Shown here: positions 30,312-31,955 of the stretch, piece by piece
Numbering within the stretch: the first letter of the stretch is position 1
Layout: each line of letters opens with the position of its first letter
Translations under genes and position numbers: made by a program
Assembly: GCA_951799425.1 (NCBI GenBank)
Contig: OX637405.1
Location: 16,651,089-16,715,088, forward strand
From: Ilex aquifolium
Taxonomy: Eukaryota; Streptophyta; Magnoliopsida; Aquifoliales; Aquifoliaceae
DNA length: 64,000 nucleotides
Direction of reading: 5' to 3'
Notes under the pieces: model-generated
What the model saw: the letters and a program-made list of their open reading frames with translations, nothing else
Database searches by the model: none
Told to the model about the DNA's origin: nothing

Positions 30312-31101
30312 TGATGAGAACCAAGGTGGGCCTACTCTTAAAGATCCTTTGCATGTCCAGATGGGCCAATTACAAGATCAAGAGCCAAGAAGATCAAGGA
30401 AGCAATGCAAGGATTGGTGCAATCCACCTGGGATGAAGCTAGCAAGAGCCCAACACTCAAGATGGGCTTGAAAGAAGGAGAACCAATTTTGATCCACTTG
30501 ATCCAAGTTTAGAATAAGTGGGTTTGAGGATGCTTAGCCCACATATGTCTTATTATTTTATTTGGACTAGGGTTTAGAATAAGTTACTATAGCACGGTGT
30601 TGTTCATGCTATAGTACCTGTGACACTATTTACTCAAGTGCATTTTTGAGAGAAAGGGTCACAAATTTTAGTCTTTAGTTATTCTTATTTAGATTAGGAT
30701 TTTCTTTCTTAGTAGATTAGGGTTTGTTTCCTTAGTATATTAGGATTTTAGGAATTTTTCTTGTAATGGTCAGCCTATAAATATGCGTTCTATCAATGAA
30801 AAAGGGGAGACAATATATAATGAATTTTGATTGTGAGTTGAGTTGAGTTTACTCCTCTTGTTCTTGATTGAACTTCTAAACTTATCAAAGGTAAATCACA
30901 ACCTTTGTGGCGTTCCTCCTTGTAATTTGGGTTCTTGAGACAGGTTCTTCAACGGGTCTAGATTTTAATATAATCTAGGTTCTTGACACGAGTTCTCAAT
31001 GGGTCTAGATTCTCCATCCATAGACCTGAGTTTGGCTTTCTTGGGTTGTATTTCCAATATTGTTGTTGGGTCTCAAAGCAAGTCGATTGGGGTTCGCATC
31101 A
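30312..31101 (+). repeat. LTR subfamily B, left arm of the head-to-head pair
   Basis: 790 bp, TGATG to CATCA, followed by TT and TGGCATC, a partial primer binding site with one change. It is closely similar to 27751-28560 and 57072-57822. Confidence 0.9.
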
Positions 31102-31124
31102 TTTGGCATCCATTTGATACCAAA

Positions 31125-31955
31125 TGATGTGAAACCCACCAAAATAACGAGATCCAACAACGAAAAGAACCCAAGATCGTTCTACGATCATAATTGAATG
31201 ATAGACCTCGACCCGTTGTTTATGACAAACAAGAACCTTGGTATATATGACCTCGACCCGCTGTTTGTGTGAAACAAGGACCTTGGTATAAAGAAAGACG
31301 CCACAAACGGTGGTGGAAATTTCGTTTGATAAGTCGCTGGTGAATGCCACGGGAAATCCCGATAAGTTCGAATAGTTCTTCAAAGAACCGTAGAGAAAAT
31401 ACTCTTCAATTTGCTGAATAAGAATCTACCTTTTCATTGATTTAGACATCTATTTATAGGCTGGCCATTACAAACAAAATTCCTAAAAATCCTAATCTAC
31501 TAAGGAAACAAATCCTAATCTACTAAAGAAACAAATCCTAATATACTAAGGAAACAAATCCTAATCTATTAAAGAAACAAATCCCAATCTACTAAGGAAA
31601 CAAATCATAATCTATTAAAGAAACAAATCCTAATCTACTAAGGAAACAAATCCTAATATGAGTTTAAATAAATTAATAAGACATATGTGGGCTAAACATC
31701 CTCAAGCCCACTTATTCTAAACTAATAATAAAAATCTTTTAAACAAATTGAAGACCTTAACAACAACAGGCCCTATCTAACATGTTCTCCTTCTTTCAAG
31801 CCCATCTTGAGTGTTGGGCTCTTGCTAGCTTCATCCCAGGTGGATTGCACCAATCCTTGCATTGCTTCCTTGATCTTCTTGGCTCTTGATCTTGTAATTA
31901 GCCCATCTGGACATGCAAAGGATCTTTAAGAGTAGGCCCACCTTGGTTCTCATCA
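31125..31955 (-). repeat. Chimeric LTR (U3 of B, U5 of A), right arm
   Basis: On the - strand it begins like subfamily B (TGATGAGAACC, tail frame, gggcttgaggatg) but from the TATA region on it follows subfamily A (GTTCTTTGAAGAACTATTC, CACACAAACAGCGGG) and ends GGGTTTCACATCA. Seven 23-bp units (CTAAGGAAACAAATCCTAATCTA and variants) lie at about 31498-31665. It is a recombinant between subfamilies. Confidence 0.85.

Follow-up and report, generated by a model that had tools for sequence, protein, structure and literature searches.

Reverse transcription of LTR retrotransposons yields by-products besides full-length cDNA, some of which are known from yeast. In the PPT-recycling model of Ty3 there are two plus-strand strong-stop DNAs. 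The first ends after 12 nt of the tRNA have been copied, and the second ends at U5 once the tRNA has been removed (PMC5371799). Dead-end strong-stop DNA accumulates in Ty3 particles (PMC5371799). For Ty3 and Ty1 these are described as unintegrated dead-end products, and section 2.2 of that paper makes no mention of joined pairs that integrate. Inverted LTR-element copies within a single 5-bp target-site duplication (TSD) are known from maize, where Gao et al. (2016, PMC4717578, Fig. 2C) presented one inverted TRIM and stated PCR and sequencing checks for their Zma-SMART arrays. This inverted TA-TRIM is a miniature element; one inverted example is named, and the passages concerned give neither a mechanism nor a joint. 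Three-LTR "complex" insertions arise by template switching, and a TSD-flanked composite from two templates during reverse transcription was described by Sabot and Schulman (2007, PMC1950507). In that complex, as far as the passages concerned describe it, the LTRs are in direct orientation, one LTR is held in common, and the outer ends are U3 and U5.

The locus described here lies in a window of 64,000 nucleotides, which is the whole stretch of DNA analysed and corresponds to G000:C15:16651089-16715088 in the 800-Mb assembly. Direct reading of positions 30312-31955 confirmed the layout given in the first-pass annotation: two complete LTRs on opposite strands, 23 bp apart, with the U3 start TGATGAGAACC at both outer ends and CAAGT on both sides (Table 1). 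The left arm is 790 bp long and the right arm 831 bp. Two solo LTRs of the window (27751-28560 and 3494-4305), both with perfect 5-bp duplications, show independently where the LTRs begin and end. A 5-bp match outside both U3 ends has a chance of ~1/1000 a priori. There is little doubt that two left-hand cDNA ends were joined and that 30312-31955 is the resulting single integrated unit.

Table 1. Features of the window locus, window controls, and U3-out pairs of the assembly with their outer 5-mers and inner ends.
Feature or unit	Position or length	Strand or arrangement	TSD or outer 5-mers	Left inner end	Right inner end	Remarks
Left TSD copy	30307..30311	+	CAAGT			Read directly; 5-bp duplications are usual for the family
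Left LTR, complete, B-type	30312..31101	+				U3 start TGATGAG to U5 end GCATCA; layout closest to solo LTR 27751-28560
Joint, 23 bp, TTTGGCATCCATTTGATACCAAA	31102..31124	.				Left PBS TT+TGG(CATC), 4-8 bp filler, right PBS inverted TGGTATCA+TT
Right LTR, complete, B-type U3 + A-type R-U5	31125..31955	-
Right TSD copy	31956..31960	+	CAAGT			Read directly
Control: solo LTR of the pair's own family	27751..28560	+	CCTAC, perfect
Control: A-type solo LTR	3494..4305	-	CAATG, perfect
Window unit		U3-out	CAAGT, perfect	TT+TGG(CATC)	TT+TGGTATCA
L010	4094 bp	U3-out	AAGGG, perfect	elsewhere	elsewhere	None at a strong-stop terminus
L016	1012 bp	U3-out	ATATA, perfect	U5+TT	internal U3 point
L017	1862 bp	U3-out	GACCA, perfect	TT	TT+TGGTATCAGAG
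L020	1353 bp	U3-out	GTAGA, perfect	elsewhere	elsewhere	None at a strong-stop terminus
L021	4931 bp	U3-out	AGCTC, perfect	elsewhere	elsewhere	None at a strong-stop terminus
L068	1694 bp	U3-out	CCTTG, perfect	TT+TGGTATCAGAGC, all 12 PBS bases	U5 end itself
L069		U3-out	GAGGG/GACGG, 4/5 bases
L018		U3-out	CATCA/TCACT, no TSD
L070/L071		U3-out	CAAAT/TTTGA, no TSD at outer ends
L019		U3-out	own TSDs: one perfect, one 4 of 5			Two independent solo LTRs

This unit resembles each of the described systems in part. A solo LTR is likewise an LTR without a coding region, flanked by a 5-bp TSD, but it is a single LTR that ends in U3 and U5, whereas two inverted LTRs lie between the TSDs here and both ends are U3. 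As in the TA-TRIM, the whole array is enclosed in one TSD. The unit does not have the miniature LTR-I-LTR structure of that element, however: it is devoid of an internal region and a PPT, its bare LTRs of 790 and 831 bp are joined at their primer binding sites (PBSs), and it belongs to a series with mapped joints. The LTRs of TRIMs are short. In contrast to the three-LTR complex, the orientation is inverted and both outer ends are U3. The first-pass annotation knew of no described plant class with such a layout. For inverted pairs as such this is too broad, as the maize TRIM pair with its TSD has been published (Gao et al., PMC4717578), but among the literature matches listed (titles and abstract openings) no other integrated inverted LTR pair was described, nor was a PBS-to-PBS joint between bare LTRs or a series of U3-out units.

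The family itself has TG...CA LTRs, a 5-bp TSD, a PBS after U5 and a PPT before the 3' LTR, which are the features of an LTR retrotransposon and do not separate Ty3/gypsy from Ty1/copia. RVT_1 and RT_RNaseH were found downstream of the A-type LTR at 26125-26964(-), with protease-like matches just below the Pfam cut-off. SH3_Tf2-1, which is presumably the integrase C-terminus, lies just 5' of the PPT and LTR at 34764. The order diagnostic of Ty3/gypsy would be protease, RT, RNase H and, at the 3' end, integrase; the order available here is one pieced together from two A-type copies. The head-to-head insertion seems to be placed immediately upstream of the TATA-like box (TATAAATACCC, - strand) that belongs to another LTR-like sequence, one with GTTCGAACG motifs (flanks 30160-30311 and 31956-32130), and a self-comparison of the window gave no second copy of these flanks. 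Elsewhere in the window, a presenilin ORF (52189-53616) has its best match in Ilex paraguariensis at 98% identity, which marks the window as plant DNA and makes a holly its probable source.

The family PBS, which we take to be of the iMet type, is TT+TGGTATCAGAGC and stands directly after the U5 end CATCA (read at 26111 and 37215). In the joint, the right arm retains TT and 8 nt of the PBS (the inverse of TTTGGTATCA), and the left arm retains TTTGG (TT and 3 PBS bases), or TTTGGCATC (TT+TGGCATC) if one T-to-C change is allowed. The inverted partial PBSs that had been noted in the 23-bp centre are indeed there and make up most of it. In the direction of the right arm the joint reads TTTGGTATCA-AATGGATGC-CAAATGATGCG. 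To judge from its letters, the middle looks as if the U5 end of the left arm had been copied twice, first imperfectly and then exactly. Such a pattern would fit two rounds of extension of a 3' end with a slip between them, carried out by either the reverse transcriptase or a repair polymerase. Locally templated filler is present in the joints of the window unit, L017 and L068, and it fits either copying or ligation. Self-pairing of the PBS word TGGTATCA uses two G-T pairs and is weak (-3.2 kcal/mol for the PBS end), and 48 of the 1024 TGGNNNNN words would pair likewise. Because this pairing is weak, the idea that the near-palindrome TGGTATCA served for mutual priming is no more than a lead.

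The first-pass annotation had proposed searching the assembly for further head-to-head pairs. With the exact joint pattern CATCATTTGG-N(0-30)-CCAAATGATG, a single match was obtained in the 800-Mb assembly, the window locus; this search allows only a short gap between exact 10-mers, and the similar joints of L017 and L068 escape it. Other head-to-head pairs were nevertheless found by means of the U3 start. The 18-base U3-start word has 125 exact occurrences genome-wide, all of which were listed by splitting the query on the preceding base (65 + 60). Among these, neighbouring U3 starts at most 5 kb apart form 11 pairs with U3 out, 1 pair with U3 in and 27 pairs in the same direction (binomial 0.006 for 11 vs 1). 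A search by U3 starts may miss short U5-out units. Examined for outer U3 ends and a 5-bp duplication, seven of the 11 U3-out pairs, the window unit included, have a perfect TSD outside both U3 ends. One has 4 of 5 bases and three have none; L018, L019 and L070/L071 were first candidates that failed the TSD test and are kept in the denominator of 11. The sole U3-in pair comprises two insertions, each with a TSD of its own (perfect in one, 4 of 5 in the other). The seven perfect-TSD units are spread over six contigs. The head-to-head layout is not unique to the window locus; it is a recurrent class with varied joints. A 20-base U3 word gave 0 matches against viral and prokaryote contigs.

Ordinary insertions, with a U3 start, a U5 end and a perfect TSD, account for 24 U3 starts among the sequences fetched, the solo LTR at 27751 included. 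The ratio of 7 to 24 is inflated, as all head-to-head pairs were fetched and single copies only in part: 17 regions on C6-C13 and most single copies on C15-C20 were left out of the 24, and several single copies were covered for ~1.3 kb only. One of the 24, L037, gave a tie in script scoring and was assigned from its LTR orientations. Many B-type copies are clustered in one interval per contig (for example C1 ~26 Mb, C2 ~23 Mb, C5 ~24 Mb, C12 ~11 Mb), which is perhaps pericentromeric.

Half of the inner ends of the seven perfect-TSD units (7 of 14 arms) fall into the short stretch from the end of U5 to PBS base 12, and both arms of the window unit are among them. These seven arm ends lie at the two strong-stop termini of PPT recycling or between them. 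They match the LTR-long plus strands ending at U5 or after the 12-nt tRNA copy that are predicted from Ty3 and Ty1 (PMC5371799). Against a uniform position along the LTR, 7 of 14 within 15 positions has a binomial probability of 2.4e-9, for which the count was tallied and entered by hand; the automated reading of ends covered five of the seven perfect-TSD units together with L018 and L069, and L010 and L021 were read separately. The L017 joint contains two near-copies of the PBS. The right arms of L016 and L021 consist only of a 5' piece of U3 (~246 and ~42 nt) that ends at the U3 start. Among the pairs with no perfect TSD, one arm of L018 ends at U5+TT (the left-arm row of this locus was disregarded as a chance U5-like word inside R), and the L069 join is a few bases short of both U5 ends.

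The two arms of the window unit are of different LTR types. Their U3 starts have 172 nt in common at 99% identity and diverge beyond, where the arms are 75.6% identical over 537 aligned columns. The left arm has the same layout as the solo LTR 27751-28560. The U3 of the right arm is B-type (94% to 57072-57471), and its R-U5 is A-type (88-90% to the copies at 3494, 7737, 26125, 35204 and 62617). The identities bear out the earlier description of a B-type left arm and a B/A chimeric right arm. The chimeric type also exists at L029, where two LTRs of the right-arm make-up (B-type U3 and A-type R-U5) are each 95.6% identical to the right arm over 833 aligned positions; no TSD was found at L029. 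That the right arm is a one-off chimera is ruled out by these two LTRs. As L029 carries the same LTR type, the chimera is an existing lineage, and two templates took part at the window locus. The idea of two different RNA templates is therefore supported for this locus, but L020 and L068 differ, as their arms are >99% identical.

We somewhat favour the reading that two plus-strand DNAs fused at their 3' ends and that the integrase inserted the product through its two U3 ends. Plus strands made from the PPT would begin at U3, continue across R and U5, and stop at the tRNA junction or shortly beyond it; two such strands would be joined through their 3' (PBS) ends. Along the likeliest route, which would take place inside the virus-like particle, one 3' end would be extended by copying the other strand as far as the 5' U3 end of the latter. 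Ligation after trimming could also have joined the strands. The product would be a double-stranded inverted molecule in which both termini are ordinary U3 att ends, and the integrase would insert it like a normal cDNA, with a 5-bp duplication as the result. For the specific strand-copying route the chances seem evenly balanced. The right arms of L016 and L021, as partial U3 pieces that end at the U3 start, are what copying of a second plus strand predicts. The first-pass annotation had proposed strong-stop products joined at their PBS ends and inserted via two U3 ends. With the wording relaxed to strong-stop-like, this gains support from the other six U3-out units with a perfect TSD, and from inner ends that lie at the predicted 3' termini of plus strands or close to them. 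Several points stand against the joining of plus strands. Four of the 11 U3-out pairs (L069, L018, L070/L071 and L019) have no perfect TSD, three of the seven perfect-TSD units (L010, L020 and L021) have no strong-stop inner end, and the window left arm has 3 clean PBS bases only. Moreover, the 4-8 bp filler of the window joint is not uniquely explained, and cellular end joining could equally give it.

Host end joining, of the NHEJ or polymerase-theta type, is the alternative that survives best. Two incomplete cDNA left ends (LTR and PBS) would have been joined by the host before the integrase used their U3 ends. End joining typically leaves short filler with near-duplications of local sequence, and such filler is seen as TTTGGTATC-AAATGGATGC-CAAATGATGCG at the window locus and as the two PBS near-copies in L017. 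The three units that join away from strong-stop ends also suit this explanation. It needs, however, free double-stranded LTR ends that have a PBS but no internal DNA, and alone it leaves the arms made of the 5' part of U3 (L016 and L021) unexplained. Host end joining is a substantial but less probable origin.

It is very improbable that two elements inserted independently in opposite orientation and that all the DNA between their PBSs was then deleted. Adjacent independent solo LTRs do exist, as at L019. When 58 U3 flanks were compared across loci, however, 0 of 1637 pairs matched in TSD fashion, whereas the outer 5-mers match at the window locus and at six other units. Two separate insertions were rejected on this null and on the logic of the TSD. 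The deletion would also need to stop inside both PBSs. The pair L020 and L021 argues further against this course of events. These two units occupy paralogous copies of one host repeat, at positions 4 bp apart, and each therefore shows the uninterrupted site of the other, ATTTTGGGTAGAGCTCCCCGTA: the left flank of L021 runs uninterrupted through the L020 target, and the right flank of L020 runs uninterrupted through the L021 target. In the joined flanks, an aligned block of 198 columns (76%) spans the junction and begins ~20 bp to its left.

A change after integration, in which inversion or gene conversion flipped one LTR within the TSDs of a normal insertion, is just as improbable. The LTR termini do carry a 5-bp inverted repeat (TGATG...CATCA). 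A PBS adjoins the U5 of the right arm, though, so this arm is not a flipped 3' LTR, and the flip was rejected because turning a whole LTR cannot yield the U3 pieces of L016 and L021. Even less credible is a foldback or MITE-like family that uses U3 as terminal inverted repeats and spread from a master copy. Several units do have long inverted termini and TSDs, but inner joint and arm length vary among the seven, the window joint pattern is matched once, and the 5-bp TSD is that of the family's normal insertions; this explanation was rejected as the joints are all different, none being common to several loci among the units read. An inverted-repeat mis-join in the assembly can practically be set aside, since the window arms are not mirror copies and a mis-join would not create matching 5-bp duplications at seven loci on six contigs.

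Knowledge of PPT recycling and of dead-end strong-stop DNA comes from yeast particles, and the U3-out loci suggest that such products occur in a plant element as well. They also suggest that strong-stop products survive, fuse and integrate, and so leave datable genomic records of reverse-transcription intermediates, and that in vivo the integrase can accept a pair of U3 ends as its substrate. More tentatively, the genome may keep integrated fossils of both PPT-recycling strong-stop species (U5+TT and the 12-nt tRNA copy), with plus-to-plus copying as a regular side path and "two-left-ended" cDNAs accepted by the integrase about as readily as normal ones. If this is true, two U3 ends would suffice for concerted integration in vivo. 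What appeared to be an oddity at the window locus seems to be a recurring by-product of element copying. Its signature, a U3-out LTR pair with one 5-bp TSD, can be counted in any assembly and would be missed by a search for direct LTR pairs.

Other rearrangements of the family were observed in the window and in the assembly. At 36452-40070 (+), an A-type element has a mosaic 5' end made up of LTR, PBS, leader, a B-type leader piece (37676-37966), a second PBS (37967), leader, an R-U5-PBS copy without U3 (38389-38705) and leader. This looks like several template switches at the PBS and the RNA 5' end. At 57072-58577 (+), a B-type LTR is followed by ~490 bp of internal sequence, which includes a second PBS (58142) and a PPT, and by a second LTR that stops at 58577. 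The two LTRs are 96.6% identical over 268 bp, and the copy is miniature and non-autonomous. Direct LTR-LTR joints without an internal region occur at L023/L034 (G000:C1:26923400-26926000), L010:3470 and L070:2190. Their sequences are CATCATTTGA-TGATGAG, found twice, CATCATTTGGAA-TGATGAG, and CATCA-TT-TGGTATCAGAGC-AA-TGATGAG with exactly 12 PBS bases. L009 (G000:C12:11431500-11438500) has B-type R-U5 every 993 bp in four copies in register, and L013 (G000:C12:11167000-11173500) has four R-U5 matches that are mirror-symmetric about a centre near 3147. Tandem LTR-internal-LTR-internal arrays of a small B-type element are found at L012, L014 and L041-L043. At C2:23411041-23421123, nine U3 starts stand in a row in small B-type arrays that are comparable with the published tandemly arrayed TRIMs.
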